From: Diphasiastrum complanatum
Lineage: Eukaryota; Streptophyta; Lycopodiopsida; Lycopodiales; Lycopodiaceae
DNA length: 64,000 bases
Direction of reading: 5' to 3'
NCBI GenBank assembly: GCA_029204225.1
Contig: MU831916.1
Coordinates: 1-64,000, forward strand
Shown: positions 4,622 to 62,441 of the stretch, in pieces
Position numbering within the stretch: the first letter of the stretch is position 1
How the letters are laid out: every line of letters starts with the position of its first letter
The notes under the pieces: generated by a model
What the model saw: the letters and a program-made list of their open reading frames with translations, nothing else
Databases searched by the model: none
Told to the model about the DNA's origin: nothing
Program-made: the position numbers and the translations under genes

Positions 4622-4658
4622 GTAGGTCTAGCTACCTTTCAATATTTTTCAATCTCCA

Positions 4659-4795
<137 letters not shown>

Positions 4796-16440: not shown

Positions 16441-16451
16441 CTCCTCCTCAC
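16441..16451 (-). promoter_or_regulatory. Polypurine tract of copia A
   Basis: GTGAGGAGGAG directly upstream of the 3' LTR in element orientation; start site for plus-strand DNA. Confidence 0.9.
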
Positions 16452-16454
16452 TAT

Positions 16455-19400
16455 CTAGCTTGGTTCAATCATTGCTTTACTAATCACTCCAAGTGATGAT
16501 CTGAACTTCATAAAATGTGTCTTTTGAAGTGGTTTAGTAAGTAGATCAGCTACACATTCATTGCTTGGAACATGCTCCAAAGCAATCTCCTTGGCTTGCA
16601 CCATTTCTCTCACAAAGTGATGGCATATCTCAATGTGCTTAGATCTTGCATGGAAGATTGGGTTAGATGCAAGGTGTTGGGCTGATATATTGTCATTGTA
16701 GATGATTGGTGCCTCCTCTGAATCCATGATCTTTAGCTCCACCAATAATCTCTTGATCCAAAGTACCTCCTTTGTAGTGGTTGTCAAAGCTTTGTACTCG
16801 GCCTCGGTTGAAGATAGAGATATAGTTTCTTGCTTTTTTGAAAGCCATGAAACCACACCTTCTCCTATGAAAGTTGAATAGGCACTTGTTGATTTCCTAT
16901 CCCTCTTGTCCCTTGCAAAATCTGAATCACTAAATGCATGAAGGTTAATCACATCTCCTCTATATAGAATCCCAAAATCCAATGTACCCGAGATGTATCT
17001 TAGAATCCTCTTAGCCTTTTTCCAATGGATATTCAATGGCTTTTGCATGGATTGGCTCAACCTACATACACTAAAGCTAAGATCTGGTCTAGTTATAGTG
17101 ATCCACATTAAGGAACCTATAAGTTGCCTAAACAAAGTGATGTCCATGAATGATCTTTCATCATCTTCATTTGGCACTTTTACATCTTGCTCCATTGGTG
17201 TGTCAACACTTTTGCATACTTCCATCTTAAACTTCTTCAAAAGACTTTGAGCATAGTTTACTTGACTTATAAAGATAAAATCAGACCCTCTAAGTACTTC
17301 TATGCCTAAAATGAAGTGAAGACACCCTAGATCTACCATCTTGAACTCTAAGGATAGATCTATCTTGAGTTTGTAGCCCTTGCTTGAGCTTGCATATCCA
17401 AGCATGATCCCTCTTGTGGAAGATGGATCCTCCTTGGTTCTTGTTTCCAATGGCACATGCACATAGCATATACACCCAAAAACTTTCAAGTGATTAAGAT
17501 TGGGTTTCTTTCCATACAACATCTCATAAGGAGTTTTGCCTTCAATTGCTTTGCAAGACACCCTATTCATCAAGTAGTTTGCACATACAAGAGACTCACC
17601 CCAAAAGGATTTGGGCAAACAAGCATCTAATCTTAAAGCCTTAGAACATTCACATAATGTTCTATTCCTTCTTTCAGCAACTCCATTTTGTTGAGGAGTG
17701 TAAGGACAAGAAGTCTCTTTCTTGATCCCTTCCTCCTCACAAAAGGCCTTGAACTCATTGGAGATGAATTCTCCACCATTGTCACTTCTAAGAATCTTGA
17801 TGCTATGATTATGATGCTTTTCCACAAACAACTTGAACTTTACAAAAGTATCAAATACTTGAGACTTGAAGGAAAGTAAGAACACCCAACAATATCTTGA
17901 GTAGTCATCAATGAAGGTTAAAAACATGGATGAACCTCCATTAGATTTGGTGCTAGCAATGTGCACATCCGAGTGTATGAGTTCAAGAGGATGAGATGAC
18001 TTTGTGATGGAGTTAGGAAACACATTCTTATGTGCCTTGGATAAGGCACAAGCTTCACAAACCTTGTCTTCCTTCCCAATAGACCTTGGTAGGCCTAAAG
18101 CATACTCCTCCTTGATCATAGCCTCTATGGAACCCGAGTTGACATGTCCAAGTCTTTTGTGCCATAAAGTAAAGGTAGATATCTTGCTCTTCTCGGCCAA
18201 CATGACAACATTAGTATCCACAAATGCATCCAGCTTATAAAGTTTGCCAAGTCTAGTGCCCTTAGCCACTATCTTACCCTTCTTCTTGATGAAACATTCA
18301 TTTGAAGCAAAGTCAACATTGAAACCATTGTCTACCATTTGGCCAACACTTAGTAGATTCTTTGTTATTGTAGGAATGTACAAAACACCTTCTATGTTGA
18401 TCTTTTTGGAAGATCCTAAGCAAAGGGGAATGCTACCAACTCCTTCAATTTTACAAGCTTCATCATTTGCTGTATAGATAGACTTTATAGGTCCATCATA
18501 AGATAAGAGAGAAGAGAAAAACTCCCTTTTACTAGTCATGTGTGAACTAGCACCCGAGTCAATCCACCAAGGATCTTCTCCTTTGAAGCTTGTTGAAGAA
18601 AATATGGACATCATGAGAGAGTCCTCATGTGAACTCTCCTCATCCTCCTCTTTGCTCATGTTGGCTTGGCTTTGATCTTGCTTCCTCTTGAAGCATTCCG
18701 AGGCATAATGCCCCATCTTGCTACAATAGTAGCACTTCACCTTTGATTTGTCCTTCTTGACTTTGGTGGTTGATGGAGATGCCTTTGGGGGTCCTTCTTG
18801 ATCCTCAAGCTTTGTAGACTTCTTGAATGTTGATCCTTTGCCTTTGGACTTGCCTTTGCCTTTGGTGAAGAGAGCTTGGTCATCTCCACCTTGGATGGAA
18901 AGCCTATCCATCCTCTCTTGCATTTGGCTCCTTCTTGATTCCTCGGCCATGAGTGTGCCTTGGAGTTCTTCAAGTATGGGTAGCTTACCCATAATTGCAT
19001 ATCCCTGAACCAAATTGTCAAATTCAAAGCTTAGTCCATTCAATATGAGTTGAACAAGCTCTTCATCCTTGATAGGGTCACCTATAAAGGCTAGCTCTTT
19101 GTTCAATTCCTTTACTCTTAGGACAAAAGTATGTGCACTCTCTCCTTTCTTTTGATAGCTTCTATAGATTTGATTCTTCAAAGCTAACATTCTAGTTTGG
19201 TTCTTGGATTCATAGACCTTTTGCAAAGTCTCCCAAGCATCTTGAGCTGAAGTGCAATCTCCTACCTCTCTTAAGAGTTCATTTGCAACATTCATTTTTA
19301 TGCAATGTAGTGCAACATTGCACCTCTTGATGTATTTGGCTTTTTCTTGAGGATGAATAGGTTCACCCTCCTTACCATTTACAATTTCCATCAGATCTTG

Positions 19401-19499
19401 CATGATCATGATAGATTCCATTCTAACTTTCCATATGGAATAGTTAGTTTTGTTGAGCCTTTCATTAGTATCCAAAAGATATGCATTTATAGATGCCAT
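16455..19499 (-). CDS. Copia A polyprotein with in-frame loss of the RT core
   Basis: A 1014-codon frame from ATG 19499 (MASINAYLLDTNERLNKTNY). Domains: gag/UBN2 about 15-200; zinc knuckle CYYCSKMGHYASEC 256-269; protease DSGASSHM 314-321; pre-integrase LWHKRLGHVN 445-454; integrase with HSDV near 509, SDNGGEF near 572 and PQQNGVAERRNR near 602, so the DDE triad is present. At about residue 712-720 (near 17345-17360) the sequence jumps from GYKLKIDLS to LEFKMVDLGCLHFILGIEV, skipping several hundred residues of hinge and RT including the YVDD box. The RT C-terminus (SVDTPMEQDV, ITRPDLSFSV) and RNase H (FSDSDFARD, SLSSTEAEY, IIYNDN, ARSKHIEI) follow in the same frame. Gag, protease, integrase and RNase H may be functional, but not RT. 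Confidence 0.92.
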   Translation of the reverse strand: MASINAYLLDTNERLNKTNYSIWKVRMESIMIMQDLMEIVNGKEGEPIHPQEKAKYIKRCNVALHCIKMNVANELLREVGDCTSAQDAWETLQKVYESKNQTRMLALKNQIYRSYQKKGESAHTFVLRVKELNKELAFIGDPIKDEELVQLILNGLSFEFDNLVQGYAIMGKLPILEELQGTLMAEESRRSQMQERMDRLSIQGGDDQALFTKGKGKSKGKGSTFKKSTKLEDQEGPPKASPSTTKVKKDKSKVKCYYCSKMGHYASECFKRKQDQSQANMSKEEDEESSHEDSLMMSIFSSTSFKGEDPWWIDSGASSHMTSKREFFSSLLSYDGPIKSIYTANDEACKIEGVGSIPLCLGSSKKINIEGVLYIPTITKNLLSVGQMVDNGFNVDFASNECFIKKKGKIVAKGTRLGKLYKLDAFVDTNVVMLAEKSKISTFTLWHKRLGHVNSGSIEAMIKEEYALGLPRSIGKEDKVCEACALSKAHKNVFPNSITKSSHPLELIHSDVHIASTKSNGGSSMFLTFIDDYSRYCWVFLLSFKSQVFDTFVKFKLFVEKHHNHSIKILRSDNGGEFISNEFKAFCEEEGIKKETSCPYTPQQNGVAERRNRTLCECSKALRLDACLPKSFWGESLVCANYLMNRVSCKAIEGKTPYEMLYGKKPNLNHLKVFGCICYVHVPLETRTKEDPSSTRGIMLGYASSSKGYKLKIDLSLEFKMVDLGCLHFILGIEVLRGSDFIFISQVNYAQSLLKKFKMEVCKSVDTPMEQDVKVPNEDDERSFMDITLFRQLIGSLMWITITRPDLSFSVCRLSQSMQKPLNIHWKKAKRILRYISGTLDFGILYRGDVINLHAFSDSDFARDKRDRKSTSAYSTFIGEGVVSWLSKKQETISLSSTEAEYKALTTTTKEVLWIKRLLVELKIMDSEEAPIIYNDNISAQHLASNPIFHARSKHIEICHHFVREMVQAKEIALEHVPSNECVADLLTKPLQKTHFMKFRSSLGVISKAMIEPS

Positions 19500-20297
19500 C
19501 TAGTCTCCTAATCAAGGACTTGACACAAATGAAGGTTACTTCTATTGATTTGATTGAAGGTCTACCTTATCCCACTTCTTAGGGACCTGAAAAGATCAGT
19601 AATAGACTTCCTATAAAGATCTAAGAATGATCTCTAACAAAATCAAATCATAGAATACTAGAAACAATGCACTTGCTTGATTGAAGTAGACAATACTAGT
19701 AGAATTGCCCCTCTTTCTATAAAGAACATTAAAGCTTCCAAATGATCTGATCAAGAGTGAATTTCAGCAACCTAATATACTTCCAAAATCACTTGTAAAA
19801 GATCTAAATGGAACTTAATGAGGATGCAACACAATCTACTATCCAATCACAAGCAAAAAATGATCAAAATTAATGAAAAATTGATCTAATTTGGTGCATA
19901 AGTCAAGCAATGGTTGGACTGAACCTAAATCACTTTAGGAGGTGCCTACTACACCTTAGAACAGCCTTGAAGAGTCCCCAAAACTCTGATCTTCCCTCTC
20001 CTTGAATGCTAGAAAGCCTTCTCTATGAAATCACCTCCAAAACTCGCTTAGAAATCAATGCTTGGAGCAAGCAAAACTTGCTATCTTGGTAATGTGAATT
20101 GAATTCAACTTTGCCTCTGGTTTTAGACACCTAAACACCTGCAAATGAAGTCACACAACACCAATCTCCAATGTATTTGACTCACTTTGAGTTCTAGAAT
20201 CAATACTAGTTGCTAAGATCCAATCTACACAAGATTTAGATCAAAAATTGTGATCAAATTGAATGCAAACCAAGGATTTAGCTCATTTCAACCTTTA
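19500..20297 (-). other. Copia A untranslated leader
   Basis: About 800 bp between the PBS and the gag ATG with no conserved frame; it would hold the packaging signal. Confidence 0.6.
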
Positions 20298-20310
20298 GGC
20301 TCTGATACCA
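20298..20310 (-). promoter_or_regulatory. Primer binding site, initiator tRNA-Met type
   Basis: TGGTATCAGAGCC immediately inside the 5' LTR, complementary to the 3' end of plant initiator tRNA-Met, as is usual in copia elements. Confidence 0.95.
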
Positions 20311-20992
20311 TGTAAAAATTACAGCAAATAAGGATCCTAAAACACTTGAAATGATGAGGAAAACAATAGATTATGATTTCATAAGATTAGCACAAGTTGA
20401 ACCATCAAAATCCATCAAAAATCTATGCTTGAACCTCACTAAATGGCCCAAATCCTTGAAGAAGGCTTCACACGTGTGAAAGTACGGCCTCCCACAGTCT
20501 GAGTACTGTACACCAGACCTACATTCAATCCTATAATCATTAGTAATCACAAGTACTCAAACAATTATGAACATAGAGAGCAATTGCACCATTATGAGAG
20601 AAAAAACATGAAATTGCTTGATTGATTTTGGTGAGATATCATCACCTATATATACATGATCCATCACGGTTTTGGGCAGGTATGAGTAGCCCTAAACCTA
20701 TCCCTAATGCTAATTTTGGTGGATCTTTCATCCCTACCAAGTTAGGGTTGGAATCTTGGAGATCCCTCAACAATGCAAAAATTACCAAAAATAGCTCCTA
20801 TTTTTTCTCCCTTGTATCTAAGCATAATTTGGACTCATTCCAAAGGTTCTAACACTTAGATCTACTTGAGAACATCCTTATGAATGGAATCCTATGCTAT
20901 TTGGCACGTGTGACAAGCCACATCATGACCATCTAACTATTTACAAGTCATATGACCAAAACTAGTCAAGCTAGAATTGTGAATTTTTAACA
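20311..20992 (-). repeat. Copia A 5' LTR
   Basis: 682 bp, 680 of 682 positions the same as the 3' LTR. It should drive transcription leftwards through the leader into the 1014-codon frame. The TATA-like element lies near 20645-20660. Confidence 0.97.
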
Positions 20993-33820: not shown

Positions 33821-34334
33821 TATCATATTGACCAAACCTAACAACCAGCAAAAGCTCCGATTTGAGGAGAATATGCTCAACTGCATCCATCCACAACAAC
33901 AACTGTGTTAGAACAGAGACATTATTGTGAAAACTAGAGGTGTCTACACATACTCTCAGTTGTTATCCATGTCGCAACAAGTAGTCATTGCCAAGTTAGA
34001 TGACTCTAATTTTGTCCATACCATGAGTAAAAAGTCGGACATTGTTTTAGCTTTACTCAAAGTTACAAAACTATAAGGTTAACAGTGTATAATCCGTGCT
34101 TGAAAGTCAACAATTACAAAAGTATGACTAAAGTAGACAATTACATCCAGACTAGTTTTAAAGTAGAGTTCAAAACTATCTACCATTACCCTTTTCAAAT
34201 GCTTATCGGAACACCATCCCTTTTGATTACTCGCATTTATTCTTTGTTTGCTGTTATTTTCCAGAGAGTTCAAAGTTGGAAGCACGGAGGAATCATTGCA
34301 TTTACATTCTATTTGGTTCTTCATGTTCTAGTTA
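33821..34334. other. Unassigned non-coding stretch
   Basis: Only short antisense-overlapping frames (34079-34324 minus, 34085-34342 plus) with no motif. Nothing recognised. Confidence 0.35.
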
Positions 34335-34696
34335 CATCTTGATATGTAAAATTGGTGTAGACATAGTGAAGCATCCAATGTGGACACTATTCTCTATATC
34401 AATTATGAAAGTTACTATAAAACCATTTTAAAGAGGTCTATACTTAGGATGGAGATCATTCTCAAGATGGATCAAAGTTGTATGGTTAAAACTATGCAAG
34501 AAACAAGCATATGAAAGTGTCTTATCATTTTGTGAGAGAACAGTCATGGAAAAGGAGACGGAGATTCAGCATGTCTCATCAAGGGAGTGTGTGGCTGATA
34601 TCTTCACCAAAGCATTGGGAAAAGAATTGTTTATGAAGCATAGAATGTCACTTGGAGTTCTATCTAAATCTATGCTAAAACTAGTAGAAGAGGGAG
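34335..34696 (+). pseudogene. Chimeric fragment: F-type tail joined to copia RNase H end
   Basis: 34349-34500 reads HSEASNVDTILYINY and later KRSILRMEIILKMDQSCMVK, matching the C-terminus of the element F frame (SEASYMDTIIYINY, KRSILMMEIILKLEQSSVVK). Directly after it comes copia RNase H C-terminus KHMKVSYHFVREQ, then (shifted) ETEIQHVSSRECVADIFTKA and a stop with PPT GAAGAGGGAG before an LTR. The RNase H part is closest to element E. Confidence 0.8.
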
Positions 34697-38257: not shown

Positions 38258-38946
38258 TGTGAAAGTACAGTACTAAGGACCATAAATGGATCTTTGAATG
38301 ATCCACAAGGTGATTGTATGCTTGTTAAACAATCTTTTAGAAACTAGTCATCAGAAAACAAGATCTAGTTTAGCAGCTTGATAGGAAACAAGTAGAGACA
38401 ATCAAAGCATTGATCAATTAGTATAATCCAACTCCACACGTGTGGAAATAAGGCTGTAGTACGGCCTGTAGACAGTGTTTACAAAGTGCCAAAGCTGGGT
38501 TTCATTGGAAAAATAGAGTAATCACTATACAATGAGAGAAACTCGAGTTTCTCCTTGAGGCTCCAAAAAGTTTCTATCATCTCACTATGAAGAATGGGAA
38601 TACATAGTAAAACACACTTCCTTTGCAAAGTTAGGTGAAAATTCAGCATGTAATAAGGAAGTAGACTCCACTTTCTTGCCCTAATGTGAAAACCCTAGCC
38701 TAGATCCAAGAGTCATGCTTGGTAGGTGCATGGTAGGTACAAATCTCATCATAAATCATGGTCTAGATCCTACAAAGTAGGAATCACTACCAAATAGACA
38801 CAACCACTCCTCTTGACTCGTGGTAACCTACTTTAGGTGTGTATGTACAAGTGGCACTTTGGCCATTGAAGTAACCAACAAACAATATTAACAAAATGTA
38901 CAATATTCTACATGGCTAGATTTGCCAATGTAGGCAATTTTTCACA
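38258..38946 (-). repeat. Copia J 3' LTR
   Basis: 689 bp, in + orientation TGTGAAAGTACAG ... ATTTTTCACA. Contains CCACACGTGTGG at about 38434 followed by GTACGGCC, a pairing also seen in LTR A. Confidence 0.85.
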
Positions 38947-39197
38947 CTCCTCCTCAAATCTAGCCTTGGAGATCACAATGCTTTTATCAATAACTCCAAT
39001 TGAAGATCTAAGCTTGACAAATGAATCTTTAGGTAAAGGTCTAGTAAACAAATCAGCCAAGAAACTTGATGATGGCACATGTTGGAGCTTGATCTCTTTA
39101 GCTTGCACTTTTTCCCTCACGAAATGATGAGCAATTTCGATGTGTTTGCTCCTTGCATGGAATGTAGGATTAGTTGCAAGTGATTGGGCTGATTGGA
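38947..39197 (-). pseudogene. Copia J RNase H C-terminus
   Basis: Reads QSAQSLATNPTFHARSKHIE, AHHFVREKVQAKEIKLQHVP and LADLFTRPLPKDSFVKLRSS, the normal end of copia pol, then runs through the GAGGAGGAG polypurine tract. Truncated at its N-terminal side. Confidence 0.88.
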
Positions 39198-39235
39198 ACA
39201 TGGAGATTGGTGGAGTTGCCTAAGGACAAGAAAGC

Positions 39236-39882
39236 TGTGAAAAATACAGATCCTAAGTGGATCTAAACTCCAAGATCATTGGCTTGAATGCTTGCACTCC
39301 AAACTACATAAGCTAGGAATTGGCAACACATTCTATGCTACCTAGAATGCAAAGAACTTGATCAAAAAGCATTTATCACAAATGGAAACTTCCATAAACA
39401 TCAAGTGCGGCCCAAAATAGCATTATACAGTCCATAATACATCAGCCTATCACTTTTGGAAAGCACCTAAGATCATACACACAAAGCTTGAACTCAATCA
39501 CTACACAATGCCAACAATGGAAGGAGAACCCAATAGAAAAATCTCTCATTAAGCAAATGAATACAATGGATCTGCTCCAACCTGTTTCTCCACGGCCTAC
39601 CTGCTATATATAGCTGAGAGAGATGACTCTCTCTCCTCTCTCTAGACCCTCCTTACCTAAAATATGCCCTATATAGGTAAAATTGGCATATATGTCCAAA
39701 ATACATGAAAATGGACTCATTTCAAAGGTCTTGAAGTTTGACACTTCTTCATACTGAAAAAATACACTTACTAAAAATATCTAGACCTGTTTCACACGTG
39801 TGAAAAGTCAGATCCTAAACTATGTGCCATTTTTAGCAATTTTGGCCTAAAACTAGACAAGGAAATGTTGACAATTTTCACA
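39236..39882 (-). repeat. Element F 3' LTR
   Basis: 647 bp; palindrome TTCACACGTGTGAA at 39791-39804 and a TATATATAG box near 39605. Same family as the solo LTR at 1770-2424. Confidence 0.97.
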
Positions 39883-39892
39883 CTCCCTCTTC
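39883..39892 (-). promoter_or_regulatory. Polypurine tract of element F
   Basis: GAAGAGGGAG next to the 3' LTR, identical to the tract of copia E and M. Confidence 0.88.
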
Positions 39893-39895
39893 AAC

Positions 39896-42800
39896 TTAAC
39901 TTGCTAGTTTTACAACACTACTTTGTTCCAACTTAAGAATGATCTCCATCATCAGAATAGATCTCTTCTCAAGGATCCTAATATGTACAAAATAGGACAC
40001 AACATAATTGATATAGATAATAGTGTCCATATAGGATGCTTCACTATTTCTTACATCAATTTTACATAGAATCATAAAAATGGTACATGTAAAAGAACAT
40101 AGAATCTCAATTAATGAATTCCTCCATGTATCCATCTCTGGTTTCTCTGTAAAATAGCAGCAAACAAGTTGTAAATGAAAGTGATCAACAAGTGTTTGCA
40201 TGCCTCCTCCACATTTCACTATACATATAGTGAATGCAACATGTATCTCCATGAATGAACTTCCATCACCACCTTGCCTTTGTAGATCTTCAATCCATGA
40301 AAGCCTTTGAGTGAATGAATGCCAAAAAGATGTGTTCCCTACTCCATTTGAATGACCAAAACCTGAACTTGAAATACTTGAAGTACCTCCACAAGATTTG
40401 CACACAACGCTTGATCCTACAATGTCAACAAGTTGCCAATTTGCCAACACTAGAATACTAGATCTTGAACTTTGTTCAAAAGAAAACATATTGACCACTT
40501 CAATACCTTTCAAGATCTGAATGAATTCATGTACTTGATCATACAAACCAGCAATGATAACTATTCCATCTCCAAGATCCAAAGGATGCAAAACTATGGA
40601 ACTAGTTTTATTGAAATTTGACAATTTCAACACATTGACATAACAATGTTCATACATGAGATTAGGCAAGTGAGGTAGAGTAAGAAGACACTTCCTTGCA
40701 GCTCCAAAGACCTTACTTGAACCTTCAAGAACCTGTAAAAACAGATCCAAAATGCCTTGACCATTTGTCTCTTCTTTGATGCTTTTCACTAGCTTCGAAT
40801 TGCCACTTGTCTCTTGGTGTTGATGAAGCAATCCAAGATCAACCTCTTGATCTTCCAATAAGACATCAAAGATCTTGCATATGTGAACATCTTCAGATCT
40901 GAAACTCTGAAGATACTCCCTCTCAAACACATGATTAAGATCCCACAAGATCTCATCAATGCTCAAATTTGACCCTTCACTATAGTTAGTGAAAACAATG
41001 CCACCATCATAAACCAAAAGATAGATTCCAACATTTCCATTTAACATGAAGTAGAGTAGGTGAAGATGAGTATCAAACCTAATCAAAACAGCCCTCTTGA
41101 GTTCATAACAAACCTCAATAAGCTCACCAATGATATCTCCCTTGCCTTGAAGAAGTTGCCACTTGAGTTGCTCCATGTAGTCTTCTTCAACCAACCTTTT
41201 GCCATCTTGACCATGAATGAACAATCCACCACAATCATAGAATGCTTTGAGTTGATGAAGAGATGTTAGATCCATGCTTTGGATCTTCCCAAGAACCACT
41301 CTTCCATTGCCCTTTCCTTCACAAGACTCCCTCTTAATGCTAGCACCACAAAAGTTAGAAACCTCCCTCTTGATAGTTGCACCATAAGAAGTAGAAGACT
41401 CTTGAATATTAGAAGCCAAGAAAAGAATCCTTAGTACCTTCAACATAAGAGTGATTGAAGTACTCTCTCTTTTCAAACATGAACTTCTACTCAATGATTT
41501 AGGTAATGAGTCATATGATAATGATTCTTCCTCACTATCGTTCATAAAAACATCATTCAAAGTACATCCTACTTTGAACACTTCACATACTTCTCTTCCT
41601 TTTGACTTGTGATCTCCCTCACCAAGTCTCATGATAGAAACCTTTGATCTACTCTTTTTATGAAGAAATGTGACACCACTTGTTGCACAAATGACTTTAT
41701 CACAAAAAGATGTAAAAGAACCATTTCCTTCAAGCATGCTCAAAGCACCATCATCTTTTCCCACATGATTACATACATCAATATGAAAAGAATTAGAAGA
41801 ACAACCATCTTCTTGCAAAGAATGACACTTAGCATCTCCATCTTTTTCCATATGAACAAACAAGTCATTAGCAACAATCACTTCCAAAGAAGAATCTTCA
41901 TCAACTCCATTGATGAAGTTAGCTCCTTCCTTACCTTTTCCATTTTTGCACTTGCCATCTAGTTCCATTGAAGAGCCACCAAGACTTGAAAATCTATGAG
42001 TAGAAGAGTTCAAACATGATACTAATTTAGCACCACATGACTCCATTTGACTAGTAGGTAGCACTAGTCCATCTTCAAGATCCAATGGATCCAAAAAATT
42101 GACCATAGATTCACCAAAGCTTGCCAAGTTAGCACAACAATTATCATCTCCAAGAAGTACATTAGATCTCAACCTAGATCTAGCATTTTGTTTCTTATGG
42201 CATTCATTTGCAAAATGTCCTTTCACTCCACAATAAAAACATTTGAACTTGGACTTATCTTGCTTCCTACTTTGCAAAGAAGAAGAATGCTTTCCATGCT
42301 CCAAACTACCTTGCTTGGACCACTTGCCTTTGAACTTGCCCTTTGTGAAAAGAGCTTCTTCATCTCCACCTTGTGTTGATGCACCACCACCTTTGGCTTG
42401 CAACCTATGCTCTTCAGCCACCAAGATCTCTTGCAAGTCATTGACACTTGGCAAGGACTTTTGTATAGCAAAGCATTGTACAAGGTTAGAATGTTCATCA
42501 AGCAAACCATTCAACATGACTTGAACTAGTTCCCCATCCTTTATGCTTTCATCTATGCATGCTAGATCATCATTCAAGGATTTAACCTTCAAGACAAATG
42601 AATGTGCACTCTCTCCCTCTCTTTGACAACTTTGGAAGATTTGCCTTCTTAGGGTGAGAACCCTAGATGTGGATTTGGACTCATAGATCTTCTTCAAAGC
42701 ATTCCATGCTTCACTTGAAGAAGTACATTTACCAACTTCTTTAAGAAGTTCATTGGTAACATTCATCTTTATGATATGTAAGGCTCTTTTAGCCCTTCTA

Positions 42801-42970
42801 TCAAAATTTAGTTGCTCTTGAAGAATTAGAGGACTTTCTTCAATTCCCACAACTATATCCATTAGCTCATTCAACTCTAGTAAAGACTCCATCCTCACTT
42901 TCCAAGTTGAATAGTTTGTAGAGTTTAACCTCTCTTTAGCTTCCAACATGATTCCACCATTGGATGTCAT
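39896..42970 (-). CDS. Gag fused to a long accessory region (element F)
   Basis: ATG 42970 (MTSNGGIMLEAKERLNSTNY) aligns with the gag start of relatives; the frame is open a further 22 codons upstream, but only from a TTG. 1024 codons, no stop. Residues 1-225 are copia gag (STWKVRMESLLELNELMDIV, HIIKMNVTNELLKEVGKCTS, GELVQVMLNGLLDEHSNLVQ). A zinc knuckle CFYCGVKGHFANEC is at 244-257. After that no protease DSGA, integrase or RT motif occurs. Residues about 290-560 are Ser/Asp/Gly rich with repeated short Cys-containing phrases. Residues about 600-950 look globular and hydrophobic (AVLIRFDTHLHLLYFMLNG, LLTLPHLPNLMYEHCYVNVL). The end (from about 973) has NSEASYMDTIIYINY, a module shared with element G. 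Two phrases echo each other (FLDPLDLEDGLVL, VLHPLDLGDGIVI). Function of the accessory part is unknown; maintenance of a long frame suggests selection or a very recent origin. Confidence 0.85.
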   Translation of the reverse strand: MTSNGGIMLEAKERLNSTNYSTWKVRMESLLELNELMDIVVGIEESPLILQEQLNFDRRAKRALHIIKMNVTNELLKEVGKCTSSSEAWNALKKIYESKSTSRVLTLRRQIFQSCQREGESAHSFVLKVKSLNDDLACIDESIKDGELVQVMLNGLLDEHSNLVQCFAIQKSLPSVNDLQEILVAEEHRLQAKGGGASTQGGDEEALFTKGKFKGKWSKQGSLEHGKHSSSLQSRKQDKSKFKCFYCGVKGHFANECHKKQNARSRLRSNVLLGDDNCCANLASFGESMVNFLDPLDLEDGLVLPTSQMESCGAKLVSCLNSSTHRFSSLGGSSMELDGKCKNGKGKEGANFINGVDEDSSLEVIVANDLFVHMEKDGDAKCHSLQEDGCSSNSFHIDVCNHVGKDDGALSMLEGNGSFTSFCDKVICATSGVTFLHKKSRSKVSIMRLGEGDHKSKGREVCEVFKVGCTLNDVFMNDSEEESLSYDSLPKSLSRSSCLKRESTSITLMLKVLRILFLASNIQESSTSYGATIKREVSNFCGASIKRESCEGKGNGRVVLGKIQSMDLTSLHQLKAFYDCGGLFIHGQDGKRLVEEDYMEQLKWQLLQGKGDIIGELIEVCYELKRAVLIRFDTHLHLLYFMLNGNVGIYLLVYDGGIVFTNYSEGSNLSIDEILWDLNHVFEREYLQSFRSEDVHICKIFDVLLEDQEVDLGLLHQHQETSGNSKLVKSIKEETNGQGILDLFLQVLEGSSKVFGAARKCLLTLPHLPNLMYEHCYVNVLKLSNFNKTSSIVLHPLDLGDGIVIIAGLYDQVHEFIQILKGIEVVNMFSFEQSSRSSILVLANWQLVDIVGSSVVCKSCGGTSSISSSGFGHSNGVGNTSFWHSFTQRLSWIEDLQRQGGDGSSFMEIHVAFTICIVKCGGGMQTLVDHFHLQLVCCYFTEKPEMDTWRNSLIEILCSFTCTIFMILCKIDVRNSEASYMDTIIYINYVVSYFVHIRILEKRSILMMEIILKLEQSSVVKLAS

Positions 42971-44130
42971 GATGCTAAAATCTTCTTGTGTCCTTAGGCT
43001 CTGTTCTAATGCACCTAGCACTCTCCTTTCTCTCAATAAATGAAGAAGGAGAAGATCTTAAAAGATTTAGAACCCTAAATGACCTCTATCTTGAAACTAT
43101 TTGGCTTTCAAGCATAGAAAGGAAGATTGAAACACATGCAACACTTTGCACACACTAAGAATGGATTACAAACTCAAACCAACCTGAACACACTCTTGCT
43201 TAAGCTCTCAAACTTTCCAGCAAGTGACCAAATCAAGTTATGGTGTGAAGAGTTACTTGCATTCTTAGAAAATACCCAAAACTAGGATGCCAAAATTACC
43301 TAGTAATGAACAAACTTGATCAACATATGATCACCACACTAAGATATTGATTCAACCTGTAAAACCACATGTAAACCACACTTCTAAAAGTTTATAAACT
43401 CCAGCAAGTGATAAATACAAGATTTAGAGGTGAATGAATGAGCACACTTAGTGAATCACAAGACTAGCTTCACTATCTTGTCAAAATTTGGTGTTTAGAT
43501 GTAGATCTAAGATCACTTCACATGAGAATGTTCCTCAACCTGTTAAGAACCTGAAAACACACTTGCATAATGGTTAACACCTTCCAGCAAATGCTCCAAT
43601 CAAATTACATAAGGAGAGTTACTTACATGCTCAACAAAGTACACCAAAATTTATGCCAAAATTGATGACAATCTTTACAATATGCTCTTCACAATGGAGC
43701 TTTCAATATGTTCACCCAAAAAAGGGGATCTTTCATCCAAATGGGAGCTTTGCTCAGCCTTTAGGAGAATTACAACTCACTCAAAAGAGCATTTGTCATC
43801 CACTTAAGGAGAAGTTTCATCCACTTAAGGAGAGTGTTCATCCAAGAATGGAGATTGTCAACAATAGGATTGAAAAGAACATTGTTAGTATTGAATATGC
43901 ACAAGCCTCACAATCACAAATGATTAGGTGTTATGATCTGATCCAAAATAGTTTCTTTTCAGCCTCTGATCTTCAATAGACCTGAAATATGCTTTTGATC
44001 CACAAGTTCAACTCACAAAACAAAGGTTAGTAAGATTTGATCAACAAAGCAATGCAAAATCATGCTAGAACTTGATCAAACATCCAAATATCACCAAAAA
44101 TGGAATACTTACTGTAAATAGAAGCCAACC
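42971..44130 (-). other. Element F leader
   Basis: About 1.16 kb between PBS and gag ATG. It contains a degenerate 22-24-bp repeat at about 43715-43860 (TTTCATCCACTTAAGGAGA and variants). A 108-codon frame on the opposite strand here is a by-product of this repeat. Confidence 0.55.
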
Positions 44131-44143
44131 AGCTCTGATACCA
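44131..44143 (-). promoter_or_regulatory. Primer binding site of element F
   Basis: TGGTATCAGAGCT next to the 5' LTR, initiator tRNA-Met type, the same primer as the autonomous copia relatives. Confidence 0.93.
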
Positions 44144-44790
44144 TGTGAAAAATACAGATCCTAAGTGGATCTAAACTCCAAGATCATTGGCTTGAATGCT
44201 TGCACTCCAAACTACATAAGCTAGGAATTGGCAACACATTCTATGCTACCTAGAATGCAAAGAACTTGATCAAAAAGCATTTATCACAAATGGAAACTTC
44301 CATAAACATCAAGTGCGGCCCAAAATAGCATTATACAGTCCATAATACATCAGCCTATCACTTTTGGAAAGCACCTAAGATCATACACACAAAGCTTGAA
44401 CTCAATCACTACACAATGCCAACAATGGAAGGAGAACCCAATAGAAAAATCTCTCATTAAGCAAATGAATACAATGGATCTGCTCCAACCTGTTTCTCCA
44501 CGGCCTACCTGCTATATATAGCTGAGAGAGATGACTCTCTCTCCTCTCTCTAGACCCTCCTTACCTAAAATATGCCCTATATAGGTAAAATTGGCATATA
44601 TGTCCAAAATACATGAAAATGGACTCATTTCGAAGGTCTTGAAGTTTGACACTTCTTCATACTGAAAAAATACACTTACTAAAAATATCTAGACCTGTTT
44701 CACACGTGTGAAAAGTCAGATCCTAAACTATGTGCCATTTTTAGCAATTTTGGCCTAAAACTAGACAAGGAAATGTTGACAATTTTCACA
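44144..44790 (-). repeat. Element F 5' LTR
   Basis: 647 bp, 646 identical to the 3' LTR. Palindrome at 44699-44712. The TATA box near 44513-44521 should start transcripts running leftwards. Confidence 0.97.
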
Positions 44791-46210
44791 AAAGCTATTG
44801 GATGCAAATGGATCTTCAAGGTGAAGACAAACCAAGATGGATCCATCAACAAGTAAAAATGCAAGGTTAGTGGCAAAAGGATAAGCTCAACAAGGGATTG
44901 ACTATGATGCGACCTTTGCACCCGTGGCAAAGATAGTAAGCATTCAAGTCATCATTTCACTTGCTACACTTTATGGATGGGATCTATGGCAAATGGACAT
45001 TTCAAATTCATTATTGAATGGTGATCTTGAGGAGGAAGTGTACATGGAGCAGTCCGAGAGCTACATTTCATCAACAAAGCCAAATCATGTGTGTCTACTA
45101 CAAAAGAGTTTTTATGGCCTTAAACAAGCACCAAGGAGTTGGTATGCTAAGCTTAGCACTTTTTTACTCTCTCAAGGCTTTGTTATGAGTGAGTATGATC
45201 ATTCACTTTATTATAGGTTTGCTGAAAATGATGTTACCATCTCGCTAATCTATGTGGATGATATTATCTTGAGTGGTGGAGACAATCAAGATGTGGAGGA
45301 TATCAAGAATGCTCTTAAGAAGGAGTTTGAGGTCCATGATCTTGGTAATTTGCATTACATTTTGGGAATAGAAGTCATTAGATCTTCTCAATCTACTTTC
45401 ATTTTTCAAGATAAGTATGCTAATTCTATTCTAGAAATATTTCATATGGTAGATGAAAAAGCTAGTGATACACCTATGCAGTCTCATGTAAAGCTAACTA
45501 TAAGAGGTAATGAAAGATCCTTCGAGGACATTACTCTCTATAGGAAGCTAGTTGGTTCACTCAGCTATCTAACCATTACTAGACCAGATCTAAGCTATTG
45601 TGTTGGAAGATTGAGTCAATTCATGCAAGATCCTAGTGAGGAGCATTGGAAGTTAGGAAAGCGAGTTTTGATATACATCATTGGAACTCGAGATTTTTGC
45701 ATATTGTATGAGAGATCATCATCTAATCTTTTTGGATTTTCAAATTCGGACTATGCTGGAGATGTAATGCATGGGAAATCCATTAGTGCTCATTGTGTTT
45801 TCATAGGTGATGGAGCTATATCATGGATGTCAAAGATACCATTGTCATCTAGTGAGGCCGAGTACAAAGCTCTTACACATTGCACAAAGGAGATGGTATG
45901 AATCAAGAGGATGATCAAGGATCTTCACTTGCTAGATTTTTCAAAGAGCCCAATCATCTTTTGTCACAATCAATCAGTCCAAAGTTGGCAACCAATTCTA
46001 TCTTTCATACTAGGAGCAAGCATATTGAGGTGCAATATCATTTTGTGAGGGAGCAAGTCATTGCAAAGGAGGTGGAGCTTCAACATGTGTCTTCAAGAGA
46101 ATGTGTAGCTGATATCTTCACCAAAGCATTGGGAAAGGACTTGTTCATGAGGCATAAGACTTCACTTGGAGTGCTATCAAAGTCTATGCTAAAACTAGTT
46201 GAAGAGGGAG

Positions 46211-48840: not shown

Positions 48841-49327
48841 TTGCAATTTCAACGACCACAAACCATCAATAAAGTAATCTTCAGGACGCATCTTTGAAAA
48901 TTCGATCATTTCTTCATCCAATATGGAAGACATTGTCTATATGTCCTGCAAAACAAACACAATCGCATAATTATAGTTTGATAAAGATTAGTTCTTATTG
49001 TTTAAATCTTATTGATGAATTATGTGTCACAAAAGGTGTAATAACTACAATTTTATAGGTCAAGTAAAAACAAAACAAAACACAATAAATGAGCTTTGAC
49101 CATATTTGATACTATTTGCTAATGACACAATGAAGGTGCTAGGAGATGGATAAAAGATAAAGTTCAACTTACTAAAACTTTTTCAATGTAAATTTTGAAT
49201 TTCAAAGTTGGGCTTTTTTTGCTAAATCTGTGACATGCAAAATCTGCATACAAACAATTTCTAAAATCAAAGGTCATTCTAGGTTTCCAAGTCTCAAACT
49301 TTGTATGAAATATTAAATCTTAGAGAC
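48841..49327. other. Unassigned non-coding stretch
   Basis: No gene or repeat recognised before duplication D copy 2 starts. Confidence 0.4.
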
Positions 49328-49989
49328 AGTAGTAAGTTTTTTTTTAAAAACAAAGTCTGTGAGGAAAGATATATTAAGAAGTTTTTATCTAAACTTCTCA
49401 ATTTATCCATTTCATGAGATTTATTGCAGAGAAAGAATCACTTTTGCTTTTTGTAGCATGGCAATTTGAGCTCATATGCAAAAGTGATTAAAGTTTACAG
49501 ATTTTTTAGAAATACCGTAATTTTCCTCTATAAAACAGTTCTAGAATCTTTATTCTGAAATAAATTCTTTGATACTGATCCAAATTGAGTAATCCATATA
49601 CTCAAATAGATCATCTAAAAAAGTTTTAAATGATTCGAGTTTTGCTCAAATTGATTTGAGGTAGTTTTCATCAACGTTTTAGAGGTTCCATGTTTTCCTA
49701 GTTCATTTTTTCTCTCTCTAGGATTTTTGTCATAATTTTCTGATTTCCGATTGTAGTTTCCTTAATACAGTATGGCCACTCACATGACTCCTTACATAGA
49801 AATTATTAGATGTACTGGAGACTGTGTGAAAGTCATGGGTCCAGCCATATTGTGTGCACGAAGTGTTCAAAGTCTGATAAAAATCCTAGGTGTACAGTAT
49901 TTTACTATTATAATTCAGTATAATTCATGGATATGATCACATTGGGTTCTCTGATATTTCAAATATACTTTATTGTCATGCAAACGCAG

Positions 49990-50091
49990 ACAACAATAGG
50001 GGCTGAGGCTCAGGCTGCGTTATGGTCCGCTAATCCTCCTGTATATGATCCAAGGAGCCTTTCAGAGCGGTATAGAAGACAACCTTTGAAG
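49990..50091 (+). other. Candidate 34-codon exon, copy 2 (gene not recognised)
   Basis: CAG acceptor, 102 bp, GTAGGT donor; peptide TTIGAEAQAALWSANPPVYD then PRSLSERYRRQPLK. The reading frame and both splice signals match copy 1 (4520-4621). It lies on the strand opposite to the gar2-like exons. Family unknown. Confidence 0.45.
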
Positions 50092-50131
50092 GTAGGTCTA
50101 GCTACCTTTCAATATTTTTCAATCTCCAATC

Positions 50132-50133
<2 letters not shown>

Positions 50134-50195
<62 letters not shown>
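50134..50195 (+). repeat. (GA)n microsatellite, 62 bp
   Basis: Counterpart of the 131-bp run at 4663-4793. Confidence 0.98.
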
Positions 50196-50197
<2 letters not shown>

Positions 50198-50722
50198 CCA
50201 TCTACTAGTATAAATATTGTTTTACATACAAACATACATAAAGGTTCTTTACCAAAATATCCATGCATAACAAAGCAAATGCTTCTTTAGCAAAATAGCA
50301 TGCATAAAAAAGAAAATGCTATTTTGGCAAAATAGCCATGCATAACAAACGGCCTTAACAAAAGTACAGTCCTTTGTTTGGGCTCCCACCACCAACATAT
50401 CTTCAATGTTGACTTTTCAACTAACTCCATTGACCAATCTCACCACATAGTCTTGCCTTTGCAAGGCAAGCCCAACAAGGTACTCCCTATTGATATTGCA
50501 TATGAGCCATGTCAACAAGAGATCAAGAGTTCTTATAAGCATGATCCCAAAATAAATAAAAAGTGTTAAAATCCCTAGCCTGGCTTAAAGGTGATGTACC
50601 AGCATATTATTAACAACTTTTAAAATTTGAGAGTCCTACCGTAGTGGCATAATTTTGCATCTGCAACTACAAAGCAACAACAATTTATAAAGCGAAATTT
50701 CTTTAGCACAATACTATGCTAA

Positions 50723-51904
50723 CTAGGCTGACTTCAAGCTAATTGGCCACCAACTACTTGTATCACCAATCAAGTCACAAACATAGGCTGAAGATGGGGG
50801 TGCATGATGAACAAAAGGAGCAAGGACTATTGTAGGAGAGGTTGAGTTAGGATAAACTTCACCATGCATTTGCTTCTCCATTGCAATCTTCAAAACAGGC
50901 ATATATCACAAAGAGATTGGCAATGAGAATTTCAAATAGAAGTAGTGTTGCCAAAATATGCCAAATCAACCATTATATGCCAAAAACTTAAGTAGATTAG
51001 GGACCGACACAAACCCAAGTCCTGAACAAAGTACCTCAGTAGTAATGGCAGCCAGAAGTGAAGGAGTGACAGGTTCTAGTGAGAAGTCATCAGGAATAAA
51101 ATTTTCCAGTATTTTCTTGATAAGAGGTAGGCTGAGAGTGGGACAAACCTATGCTCATATTGATACACAGTATGTCAAATAGAATTTAATATACTTTCCA
51201 TCCTGCAAGTTAGACATAGAGAGAGAGAGAGAGACCTCTCTTCTGACAGATTTATCCATGAGCATGTCCTTAGGCAGCATAAGAAGATCAGCCATTGTCG
51301 TCAGTAGAGGAAATGATGCTTGCTGTTTTCTGGTTTCCTTTTCTGTACTATTAAGATGTGATGAAGTAATATTGTCATTAATAGACCCGTCCCCCGCAGT
51401 AACTGCAGCAAGCCAAGTTGACCAAGTTCTAATGTACATATAATAAAAAGTTTCACCACCTATGCAAGCACATCAGAAGTACGATAAATCTGGCACATAA
51501 TGTTGTGCAAAAGAACAGATGAACTATGTAGGGTAAAGTTGCTATGATAATGGCTATTTATACACGCATGCAGATCCTTACACCAAATTTAAGCTGAGCA
51601 CCACCTCCAAAACTCAATTTTTCAGAAGTACGATAAATCTGGCACATAATGTTGTGCAAAAGAACAGATGAACTATGTAGGGTAAAGTTGCTATGATAAT
51701 GGTTGTTTATATATGCATGCAGATCCTTACAGCAAATTTAAGTTGAGCACCACCTCCAAAACTCAATCTTTCAGCACGAATTGGGAGTACACTTGGATCA
51801 ACAATTGGGTCGGCAATAGGATCTGTGGGAGCCCATTCGCCAGGGTCACAAAGGAATGCATTGAACATGGCTACATCCAATCGAGATACACACTGTTCAA
51901 GGAT
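50723..51904 (-). CDS. Last four exons of a gar2-like plant gene (partial)
   Basis: Minus-strand exons: (1) 51731-51904, ILEQCVSRLDVAMFNAFL ... APTDPIADPIVDPSVLPI ... LSFGGGAQLK, after TTTTGCAG and before GTAAGG; (2) 51236-51428, TWSTWLA ... MADLLMLPKDMLMDKSVRRE; (3) 51035-51148, VCPTLSLPLIKKILENFIPD ... AAITTE; (4) 50723-50887, IAMEKQMHGEVYPN ... APFVHHAPPSSAYVCDLI, ending in TAG. The EQCVxRLDVAMFNAxL, TDPxxDPIxDxxVLPI, DLLMLPKDMLMD and CPTxSLPLIKxxL motifs are, from memory, those of the plant proteins annotated nucleolar protein gar2-like (At2g42320 type), conserved in land plants. Exons 2-4 join in phase. Exon 1 ends in phase 0 while exon 2 as placed needs phase 2, so either a splice site is wrong or the copy is damaged. 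Upstream exons were not found before 52000, so it may be a gene end or a duplicated fragment. Confidence 0.75.
51479..51775 (+). repeat. 149-bp tandem duplication within the gar2-like intron
   Basis: Units 51479-51627 and 51628-51775. The first carries a truncated copy of the 3' end of exon 1 with its donor; the second merges into the full exon. Shared with copy 1 of the segmental duplication. Confidence 0.87.
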
Positions 51905-60554: not shown

Positions 60555-62441
60555 TATTGAAGGAAAGAAAGGATCCTAAGTGCAACCTTTGTGACAAGGA
60601 AGGATATATTTTCTCAAGATGCTACAAAAAGAAGACCAATCCATCCAAGGAGAACCAAAGGCAAGGGGGCCGAGGTGAAGGATGGAGCTTCAAGTTCGAA
60701 ATGCAAATACAAGAAGGACAAGTCCAAGGAAAGGTGTTTCCTTTGTGGAAAGGTGAATGAGGCTTGGAGTCTCACAAGGACTTGCAAGATTTGTCTTCAA
60801 GAGTCCATCACAACACATGTCAAATCTTTTGAAATTTTTCATTTGGAAGTGCATTGTTTGGTTCAAGATGCAAAGATAGATGTCACTTTCATGAAAGTAA
60901 CTTGGATTTATTTTATGTCCTTGGAAAGTATTTTGCTTGGAACTTTAGATAAGTTCAAACTTATTGTTATGATCCAAGAGAAATCAATCAAGAATGAGGA
61001 GCATCAATCACAAAATGAAAATGGTTTCATTTATGCTCTCATGTCAACTTATGAAGATCTATTTTGCTTTGAAGGGATTTGTGTATCTCAAAGGTGGCTT
61101 AAGGCAATACTAGTTGAGTGTGATGCCTTAAAGTATAGCAAAGCATGTTTTCCTTGTAAGCTTACATGAGTTATGAAGACAAGGAAATGGAAATATCTTC
61201 ATAATGTAGGATCTTTTGGTTTCAATAAGATCATGAATGATGTCTTCATTCATAAAGATGAAAATTGTATGTTTTCAATCCTAAAGGCAAGTTGTAAACT
61301 TCTTATGAGAATAAGTGAAGCATCCAAAGTGGACACTTATATCCATAAGCAAGTAGTTAGCCTTATTGAGATGGAAATACCTTTTGATTTCAATATTGGA
61401 AAAATCATGCCAAGTTGTGGTGATTTTTGGACTTATGTTTCTAGCATAGGTAATCTTAATAATCATAGGAAGTGCATATTGAATGGTCATGATTGTTGTG
61501 ATCATTATGAGACATGGAGGTCTCGGATTTCCATAAAAAAGGAACATCATGAAGAGGATCTTAAGGAGTCATCTCAAGGTTCAAGTGTGCCAAGGATTGA
61601 GGAGGAGAGTCCTTCTCAAGGTTCAAGTATGTCAAGGATTGAGGAGGAGAGACCTTCTCAAGTTGTGATTCCAAAAAGAATATCAAGAAACATGGTTGAG
61701 TCCATGTGGCTCACATTTCAAGGGAAAGAGGAGCATACCTCATGTGGTATACATCTCATACTTACTTCTCCTATGGCATTTGATAAATCAATTTACTTTA
61801 GTGAGATCATTGCATCTCAAAATTGGAGTAAAGCCATACTAGTTGAGTATGAAGTCTCTCTTGAGAACATAGATGATGTGCTTAAAAGGTTGAAATTGAT
61901 TTTAAATCAACTAAAAAGCAAATGTTTATTTCATCAAATGTATGCTCTTGAGTCATGTAAGAGCAAAAGTGATTTGTTCACTCATAGTTTGAAAATTTGT
62001 ATTGAGGCAAATTGTAAACTCTTTATGAGAGTAAGTGAATCATCTTCTAAAGACACTTATCTCCATAATGAAGTATTTAGCCTCATTGGATCTGAGATTA
62101 GCATGGTAAACAAGCATGAAGATATGATGCAAACACTTTGTTATTATAGCATGCATAGTCTTGCCAATTTGGATAAGTCTAATTCTCTAGATCATGGTAA
62201 CATGATGTTAGATCTTTGTGATCCTAATAAGTCAAGAAGAAATCTTTATTTTCTCTTGGAGGAGCATGCACATGAAGAAGGAGCAAGCCTCAAAGTCAAG
62301 CATCTACATGAAATTTGGAAGGAATCAATTTCGAAGATGCTAGGATGGTGCAAAGCTCTCAAGTTCATCAAAGATGTCAACATCAAAGAAGCACTATCAT
62401 GGATATGGCGATTTCAGATCAACATCAAGCTCATTGGCTGA
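60555..62441 (+). pseudogene. Zinc knuckles and duplicated accessory module (element G)
   Basis: A zinc knuckle CNLCDKEGYIFSRC (Tyr for His) near 60580 is followed, in the frame of 60591-62441, by a degenerate second one (CFLCGKVNEAWSLTRTC). The frame is open for about 616 codons except one TGA at 61167-61169. It contains a module twice: SQRWLKAILVECDAL ... CKLLMRISEASKVDTYIHKQ VVSLIEMEI (about 61083-61370), and SQNWSKAILVEYEVS ... CKLFMRVSESSSKDTYLHNE VFSLIGSEI (about 61815-62095). Between them lies a Ser/Glu-rich hinge (PRIEEESPSQGSSMSRIEEE) like that of copia pol. The Trp-x-x-Ala-x-x-Val-Glu phrase recalls the start of copia RT (WxxAMxxE), so the frame may derive from pol by loss of the catalytic regions. 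Confidence 0.7.

Follow-up and report, generated by a model that had tools for sequence, protein, structure and literature searches.

A gag-bearing, non-autonomous copia element of Diphasiastrum complanatum with a conserved hairpin and a likely reverse transcriptase remnant in its long open frame

We analysed a 64,000-nucleotide stretch of Diphasiastrum complanatum DNA (contig MU831916.1, positions 1 to 64,000; hereafter the window), in which a 5555-bp copia element lies on the minus strand at positions 39236–44790, inserted inside another, RT-bearing copia element. The paired 647-bp LTRs with a single mismatch between them, the primer binding site, the polypurine tract and the target-site duplication AAAGC described in an earlier note were all confirmed, as was an uninterrupted frame of 1024 codons (42970–39896, minus strand) without a stop. 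The features used below are as follows.

1770–2424, plus strand: solo LTR of the sister family, with CCAAC on both sides
39231–39235, no strand: target-site duplication AAAGC, left
39236–39882, minus strand: 3′ LTR of the focal element, which reads on the minus strand
39883–39892, minus strand: polypurine tract (PPT) GAAGAGGGAG, adjoining the 3′ LTR
39896–42970, minus strand: one uninterrupted frame of 1024 codons and a stop
39899–40897, minus strand: module X, residues 692–1024, at the RT position in relatives
40003–40065, minus strand: conserved 63-nt hairpin within X
40898–41302, minus strand: likely RT palm remnant, residues about 557–691 (RT comparison; profile support weak)
41768–42199, minus strand: tail residues 258–401; similarity of 261–401 to X in relative L035 (tblastn)
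42200–42970, minus strand: gag, residues 1–257, copia type with zinc knuckle (profile matches, purifying selection)
42971–44143, minus strand: leader upstream of gag
44132–44143, minus strand: primer binding site (PBS) TGGTATCAGAGC, adjoining the 5′ LTR
44144–44790, minus strand: 5′ LTR of the focal element
44791–44795, no strand: target-site duplication AAAGC, right
45488–45551, plus strand: hairpin copy (model match) within the interrupted copia element's RT gene

The first 257 residues had been read as copia gag, and Pfam searches bore this out, with Retrotran_gag_2 at residues 27–193 (E 4.1e-22), the mark of a copia-type gag, DUF4219 at residues 15–40 (E 2.3e-6) and a zinc knuckle at residues 243–257 whose 18.6 bits lie under its 20.8 cut-off. 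This gag is under purifying selection: omega was 0.17 pooled over 8 loci and 0.11 against the sister family, and substitutions at the three codon positions against relatives were 0.203/0.125/0.450 (0.119/0.175/0.340 for a few matches starting late in gag). Residues 283–1024 matched no Pfam family at E<=1 and nothing in NCBIfam, PHROGs or PDB searches, and the Pfam search recognised no pol order PR-INT-RT-RH in the element. Protein searches with the tail found no relatives in viral_contigs, genome_contigs and plasmids, collections with few or no plant sequences.

The 739-codon tail contained 0 in-frame stops against 48.6 expected, and the longest open run among 500 Markov-simulated sequences was 159 codons, so that chance does not account for the open frame. 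Codon usage, scored with stops excluded, favoured the 1024-codon frame in 7/7 sub-segments; the three X sub-segments taken singly scored 0.042, 0.007 and 0.082, all within the range of the non-coding control (95% point 0.087 for 360 nt). That other copies would show random stops had been named as a finding that would refute the earlier reading of the tail; this was not what we saw, as 38 of the 45 scored copies in the genome, these being the best-scoring and youngest ones, had no stop in the frame. Because the copies are so young, their intact frames say little.

The earlier statement that the frame holds no pol motif stood for standard profile searches and gave way on closer comparison, which uncovered an RT-like stretch. 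Residues 561–691 aligned with the RT of relative L031 at a protein score of 70 (Gumbel p 1.1e-4, or 8.5e-4 when the whole tail is considered). At the DNA level three RT sequences, of which two are near-copies, gave p 0.0008–0.0022; the L037 and L039 RTs gave DNA scores no higher than shuffles. The comparison covered 21 segment-target pairs. Against the family RT profile the palm-like stretch scored 5.1 bits (E 0.21 among 525 targets; best decoy 3.6), with YDGG at residues 654–657 in place of YVDD. These similarities suggest that residues 557–691 are likely, though not proven, to derive from an RT that is catalytically dead. A known transposon domain, the other finding named beforehand as adverse, is thus seen in part of the tail as a likely degraded RT, and was not seen in the standard profile searches. 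Elsewhere in the tail, residues 261–401 matched the X region of the copia relative L035 (tblastn E 7.5e-8) and residues 402–560 had no match in any comparison run. A structure of residues 555–925 predicted without an alignment had a pLDDT of 33.5, too low to be of any use.

Of 18 loci in relatives, 17 have an RNase H tail after X, and in 5 the integrase end comes before X. As the query that found relatives L023–L042 included the RNase H tail, its presence in them is partly a product of that choice. X, too, is likely, short of proof, to derive from RT. A similarity to RNase H at the end of X, seen by eye, was discarded since anchored alignments were no better than shuffles.

The proposed dN/dS check of the extra region was run on X, its last third, and gave omega values of 0.92 and 0.98 (against 16 and 18 loci), compared with 0.17 for gag. 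Codon-position substitutions in X against relatives were nearly even (0.255/0.283/0.256 and 0.272/0.211/0.261), and single-base gaps occurred between relatives. X is without detectable amino-acid constraint; with gag kept, a long open frame in such elements is therefore not by itself evidence of protein function. Stops in the relatives' X amounted to 0.8% in the same frame versus 4–9% in the other frames, and a first count suggested an approximately fivefold depletion. In a fairer count, stop events among relatives were about half as many as in the other frames, as expected of neutral change that started from an open ancestor; the ratio against the focal element was 0.18, the focal element itself having been picked for openness. 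Because the fairer count fits neutral decay among relatives, we do not claim strong selection against stops, and selection holding the frame open is weakly supported. The RT-bearing L031 and L032 were left out or unmatched in the codon-position, omega, stop-count and pairwise-divergence analyses of X, and the near-duplicates L026, L028 and L041 were left out of the fairer stop count and kept in the codon-position, omega and pairwise analyses. Alignments scoring <110 were dropped in the omega, stop-count and pairwise analyses, those with E >1e-8 in the codon-position analysis, and pairs outside 3–30% divergence or with <100 sites in the pairwise analysis.

The hairpin, located 110 nt upstream of the PPT, is conserved with covariation. 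Its block had an identity of 0.946, no other window in aligned X exceeding 0.854, and third codon positions were the least variable there. Pair cells were paired in 98.0% of cases and 7 of 18 pairs had changed on both sides, values each reached by 0/500 shuffles; the measure of further pair types was not exceptional (133/500 and 46/500 shuffles). A model built without RT sequences matched the RT gene of the interrupted element (E 3.6e-9) with 48.8 bits, or 25.9 bits (E 5e-7) when structure was left out, and the site in RT-bearing elements corresponds to RT position VKL-IRGNERSFEDITLYRKL. At 45488–45551 the hairpin was much stabler than synonymous recodings (z -4.4 to -4.7), and in both RTs tested the hairpin site had the lowest recoding z of all windows (76 and 77). 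At the RT site the model was at chance level in L023 (E 0.56) and in the 16.5–19.5 kb element (E 0.52), and it had no match in L043, an RT-deleted sister copy. Since RT-deleted sister copies without the hairpin have multiplied (17 rows), it is not strictly required. The 27-nt hairpin arm had 4245 exact matches in the genome; an X 27-mer located 35 nt from it had 1138, although this 27-mer was taken from the majority sequence of 12 loci and misfits the focal element's own family. Rfam gave no match at 40003–40065 up to E 5, and viral_contigs held no RT relatives in which the hairpin could be sought. A literature search, made other than by sequence, did not find the hairpin, and we do not claim its absence from print. 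The hairpin scan and pair counts also placed two copies in odd ORFs at 60.6–62.4 kb; a similarity of the tail to these ORFs by plain alignment was rejected, 8.7% of shuffles being as good.

The focal element's family is young and abundant, with 541 exact diagnostic matches in the genome. Its sister family has intact 1322-codon gag-pol frames, which contained 59 of 121 RT matches among those listed (counted by eye); the sister-family locus L043 has the order gag-PR-INT-RT(part)-RH and ends with the same PPT. The sister-family LTR was represented by the solo LTR of the window, which matched the C286 LTRs at about 100%. From this LTR the downstream part of the focal 5′ LTR (44144–44389) was 0–2% different and the upstream part (44390–44790) 14–18%. 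The leader, compared from nt 43 because the first 42 nt are missing from L043, was ~1% different from nt 43 to about 1035 (43109–44101) and ~20% different outside this range, and the upstream LTR part plus gag differed by 14–23%. The focal element and the sister family thus form a recombination mosaic, and such an LTR/leader/gag mosaic is expected from co-packaging and template switching. The earlier description of a young, gag-bearing element that lacks functional pol and needs a partner is supported, and the genome holds a candidate partner with intact frames.

Taken together, the sequence evidence makes it probable that this is a non-autonomous copia element making its own Gag and copied in trans by the abundant, intact sister family, its pol having eroded in frame and the hairpin having been kept. 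The sister family's enzymes would mobilise it, whereas its own protease and integrase would be gone or unrecognisable and its RT catalytically dead. The tail, or at least its last third, would be amino-acid-neutral filler in a long frame reaching almost to the PPT, and what is kept would be RNA features, namely the partner-type LTR end and leader, the PBS, the PPT and the hairpin that RT-bearing elements have within RT. The open frame may avoid a long 3′ UTR (nonsense-mediated decay) or preserve RNA length, and the hairpin may act in cis in packaging, dimerisation or reverse transcription. We give even chances to the broader proposal that a plant-type copia lineage carries a cis-acting hairpin within its RT gene and that relatives with a dead RT still have it, in thousands of genomic copies, despite loss of the RT protein around it; selection would favour non-autonomous elements that hold on to a replication or packaging signal located in pol, while the surrounding long frame is tolerated filler. 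The hairpin would then be a concrete candidate for the cis signal by which gag-only elements keep using a partner's enzymes.

A passive deletion derivative, in which frame and hairpin are functionless young leftovers of pol and abundance comes only from the LTR end and leader common to the partner, would explain why stop events among relatives fit neutral decay and why RT-deleted sister copies spread without the hairpin. It is nevertheless unlikely, as the hairpin block covaries and is more identical than other windows of aligned X, and its arm outnumbers the nearby 27-mer, albeit one that misfits the family. The earlier note had taken the extra region for an accessory or regulatory protein or a foreign cargo, which sits poorly with tail parts that look RT-derived and an X omega near 1. 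A working accessory protein or fast-evolving Gag extension, translated in fusion with Gag and of use to the element, as the DUF1 of RLG_Quinta might be, would account for the 739 stop-free codons, the favourable codon usage, the 38/45 intact copies and the rarity of stops in the relatives' X frame. However, omega as measured for X, the quiet third codon positions of the hairpin block, the single-base gaps and the want of a family match all argue against it, and the copies are too young for intactness to say much, so that we regard it as quite unlikely. A host gene or viral cargo captured between gag and the 3′ LTR would fit the lack of Pfam, NCBIfam, PHROGs and PDB matches over residues 283–1024, and plant LTR elements do capture gene pieces, according to the part of the literature compared (PMC7264820). 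It is highly improbable, though, given that X lies at the RT position in relatives, that X and RT genes have the hairpin in common and that residues 261–401 also match a copia relative.

Having a copia-type gag and no recognisable pol, the focal element is filed as a non-autonomous copia derivative, not as a complete Ty1/copia (Pseudoviridae) member. LARD elements (Kalendar et al. 2004) are reportedly non-autonomous and without coding capacity, and their conserved internal region is said to adopt an RNA structure; the focal element, unlike them, has a selected gag (omega 0.11–0.17) and hence no non-coding interior. TR-GAG elements, reportedly described by Chaparro et al. 2015, may by definition demand gag alone in the coding frame, and here 767 further codons share it. 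In the excerpts compared, TR-GAGs are two LTRs around a gag frame without functional pol (PMC9784723, PMC10025401); the focal element fits this description, its gag ORF being flanked by LTRs, PBS and PPT and functional pol being absent. It measures 5555 bp against a TR-GAG median of 4837 bp in PlantLTRdb, and whereas those accounts describe TR-GAGs by gag, its gag is the first quarter of the 1024-codon frame.

The closest published kind is RLG_Quinta/RLG_Cereba of Einkorn wheat, where, in the portion of the source compared, a non-autonomous element has an ORF of GAG plus a domain of unknown function, DUF1, and template switching is proposed between two Quinta lineages (PMC11302176). Our element is likewise non-autonomous with GAG plus an extra region, and it has a candidate partner sharing part of the LTR (0–2% different) and the following region (~1%), but it is copia whereas RLG_Quinta is gypsy. 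The same portion leaves the origin and function of DUF1 open, as the published cases compared leave such parts of plant elements unexplained; here part of the tail was traced to a likely eroded RT, X was found to lack detectable amino-acid constraint while gag is kept, and a hairpin was found, which is a new part relative to RLG_Quinta/RLG_Cereba. Other wheat elements, in the passages compared, include the semi-autonomous GAG providers RLG_Sabrina/RLG_WHAM and the copia RLC_Angela, whose sub-populations with degenerate coding sequence co-evolve with autonomous ones, and for none of these do the passages describe a hairpin embedded in RT or a degraded RT spanned by one open frame (PMC9744471). 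Sireviruses and some other copia elements are described, in the excerpt compared, as having a conserved inverted repeat at the PPT (PMC2829016). Our hairpin is likewise a conserved inverted repeat close to the element's 3′ end; the published repeat, however, flanks the PPT and extends into the LTR, whereas ours is found upstream of the PPT and, in elements with an RT, within the RT gene.

The gag-bearing copia LTR element was laid out as the earlier note had described, with the modules treated below at the following positions.

39236-44790, minus strand: the element, with an LTR pair, target duplication AAAGC, PBS and PPT
39899-40897, minus strand: module X, residues 692-1024 of its frame
40003-40065, minus strand: the hairpin inside X

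Also as described, its LTRs (647 bp each) had one difference and its frame ran for 1024 codons; the frame stops 13 nt short of the LTR. The element lies within another copia element, where it interrupts the RT (reverse transcriptase) gene; that RT resumes at 44924-45901. Beside the insertion, 38908-39235 is a rearranged junction, at which a copia RNase H end (minus) adjoins another copia's RT start (plus). Many near-identical copies were found in the genome searched (G000, 1.74 Gb). Among the best candidates, the only ones scored, 45 of 45 places matched over all 1024 residues and 38 had a frame without a stop, which speaks against random stops in the tail (residues 258-1024). An exact 41-mer from the tail occurred 541 times (control, 0). 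Eight copies' frames, the window copy included, contained zero stops, and the other seven were at most one base apart from each other. The family is young.

The gag is real and under selection, with an omega (dN/dS) of 0.17 against eight loci and of 0.11, over 244 codons, against a sister copia family with intact gag-pol frames. Substitutions by codon position were 0.203/0.125/0.450 for matches beginning within the first 500 nt and 0.119/0.175/0.340 for later-starting ones (~100 sites per position).

This sister family was represented in the window by a solo LTR (1770-2424), ~86% like our element's LTR, which as a query in G000 gave 40 scored LTRs at ~100%. Between two such LTRs sits L043 (G000 C286:75403-81266), an RT-deleted copy with leader and gag ~91% like our element's in DNA, followed in one frame by protease, integrase, part of RT and RNase H. 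The 40 main places obtained with the L043 protein comprised, by eye count, 17 RT-deleted and 23 longer copies; 14 of the 17 scored RT-deleted places (L043 and 16 similar) and all 23 longer copies were without stops, 19 of the latter having a 1322-codon frame (eye count). The RT-deleted variant keeps about 1130 codons open without interruption; it is non-autonomous, arose by an in-frame deletion in RT and has multiplied. Of 121 matches listed for an RT query of G000, 59 sat within 1322-codon frames, all covering the 330 residues at 86-87%, and an exact integrase 41-mer of the family occurred 2165 times.

Comparison with the sister family revealed a mosaic. Over its first 400 nt the LTR differed by 14-18%, and over the remainder by 0-2% (the window's solo LTR serving as sister LTR); the leader, compared without its first 42 nt, differed at 8 bases over nt 43-1035 and by ~20% from nt 1036 onward into gag (15-23%). 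A downstream LTR part and leader taken from one RNA, with gag to the upstream LTR taken from the other, would be expected had the two RNAs been co-packaged. Strong-stop DNA would have been made from the partner and transferred onto our element's RNA, with a single template switch back close to the gag start; we infer this mechanism, and with it the naming of the LTR parts as U3 and R-U5. Leader stretch 43181-43663 contained diverged repeats ~184 nt apart with TCCAGCAA and CAACCTG motifs, and is possibly a packaging region.

The tail had been read as an accessory or regulatory protein or a cargo; it is probably not a new protein. The end of the tail was matched by a fragment at window 34220-34500 and retrieved 18 relative loci (L023-L042 minus L031 and L032). 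X lay directly ahead of the RNase H tail in 17 of the 18, a sharing partly by choice because the query included that tail. In five (L030, L033, L034, L035, L042) the integrase end preceded X with no RT match between; in L035 X was in frame with both flanks and held an internal frame change. X omega was 0.92 (16 loci) and 0.98 (18 loci), and no codon-position signal was detected against the relatives (0.255/0.283/0.256; 0.272/0.211/0.261). Among the relatives themselves, X gave 0.134/0.134/0.116 and 0.141/0.121/0.145, and the adjoining RNase H tail 0.078/0.095/0.188. These dN/dS values argue against constraint on this last third of the tail; given that the relatives include many decayed copies and several near-duplicates, mild constraint on X is possible. 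Stops made up 0.8% in this frame of X versus 4-9% in other frames, so the ancestor was open in that frame. Stop events among relatives were about half those of other frames, as neutral decay predicts, and the ratio against our element was 0.18, our element having been chosen for openness; there is little direct support for a frame actively kept open.

Residues 561-691 resembled the RT palm, with YVDD changed to YDGG. This stretch scored 70 as protein (p 1.1e-4), reached p 0.0008-0.0022 as DNA against three RTs, of which two are near-copies, and gave a tblastn E of 0.05 against another RT. Since its DNA score with the L037 and L039 RTs fell inside the shuffle range and the family RT profile gave a weak signal, we regard an RT palm remnant as likely, not proven. 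L035 matched residues 261-401 in its X region (E 7.5e-8), and residues 402-560 matched nothing.

In the part of X that was aligned across 12 sequences, one block of 63 nt had a mean pairwise identity of 0.946 versus 0.812 elsewhere, the best of 106 other windows reaching at most 0.854. Its variation was lowest at the third codon position (0.080/0.051/0.030), and was 0.036 at paired and 0.096 at unpaired sites; an earlier count (17 contexts, single-base gaps ignored) gave almost equal values of 0.060 and 0.073. Single-copy folding z-scores on the element's strand were -1.5 to -3.0. In nine hairpin sequences, 98.1% of pair cells were standard and 6 of 18 pairs showed both-side changes, a level reached in 0/500 shuffles (slid controls, at most 2). 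Independent events are fewer than cells, as the diverged copies at window 61294 and 62014 lie next to each other and could have a common history. The count of further pair types was unremarkable (133/500). Once two RT sequences had joined the set, both-side changes rose to 7 of 18 pairs (0/500; further pair types 46/500). The 27-nt hairpin arm had 4245 exact occurrences in G000, and a 27-mer of X lying 35 nt from it had 1138, the places inspected being part of these totals. At G000 C1:25525883-25535176 four copies of the arm followed one another exactly 3089 bp apart, which suggests that an X-bearing unit is repeated there in tandem. Both diverged copies lie in window 60561-62441, where two long frames of 202 and 423 codons, containing repeats that resemble zinc knuckles and linkers, had no Pfam match; this is possibly a further RT-dead copia relative.

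A covariance model built from the nine sequences placed the hairpin at 45488-45551, inside the RT gene (E 3.6e-9, 48.8 bits; sequence alone scored 25.9 bits with E 5e-7), and at the homologous RT site in L031 and its near-copy L032. The match was weaker at the L037 RT (E 0.003), at chance level at L023 (E 0.56) and absent in L043, where that RT part is deleted. The synonymous-recoding test covered two RTs and the 16.5-19.5 kb element, four other RTs being missed by the motif search. The hairpin was far more stable than recodings in the two RTs (z -4.4 and -4.1); no other sliding window scored as low, out of 76 in one and 77 in the other (next lowest -3.5 and -3.8), and the corresponding place in the 16.5-19.5 kb element gave -2.4. 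The protein encoded around it was weakly alike (residues 940-1005 versus RT, p 0.007; copies at 61.3 and 62.0 kb, p 0.014 and 0.08). Taken together, these results tie X to RT through the hairpin, which also appears to be a nucleic-acid element in its own right. RT-deleted sister copies are without it, judging from L043, yet spread (17 rows), which counts against a strict need for it. RT is also partly lost from another open frame in a second young element (15759-20992; repeats 15759-16440 and 20311-20992, 682 bp, 99.7% identical), whose 1014-codon gag-pol frame (16455-19499, minus) runs from integrase into late RT.

Our element belongs to a young family with a selected gag and no recognisable functional pol, beside an intact-frame sister family with which it forms a recombination mosaic. 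Its LTR-driven RNA would be translated to Gag with a long tail and packaged with partner RNA and enzymes via the common leader, then copied by the partner RT and inserted by the partner integrase; the hairpin might help dimerisation, packaging or copying. In wheat, RLG_Quinta codes for GAG and DUF1 and has the autonomous RLG_Cereba as its partner, the two having a common PBS and LTR parts (PMC11302176); Sabrina, WHAM and degenerate Angela, also of wheat, are similar partner elements (PMC9744471). Our element is a copia counterpart of the GAG-plus-DUF1 kind, differing in an extra domain that is partly explained and in an RT-embedded hairpin. Elsewhere in the window, 3847-5640 and 49327-51840 resembled each other at 94-95% in direct orientation and contained ~150 bp tandem units.
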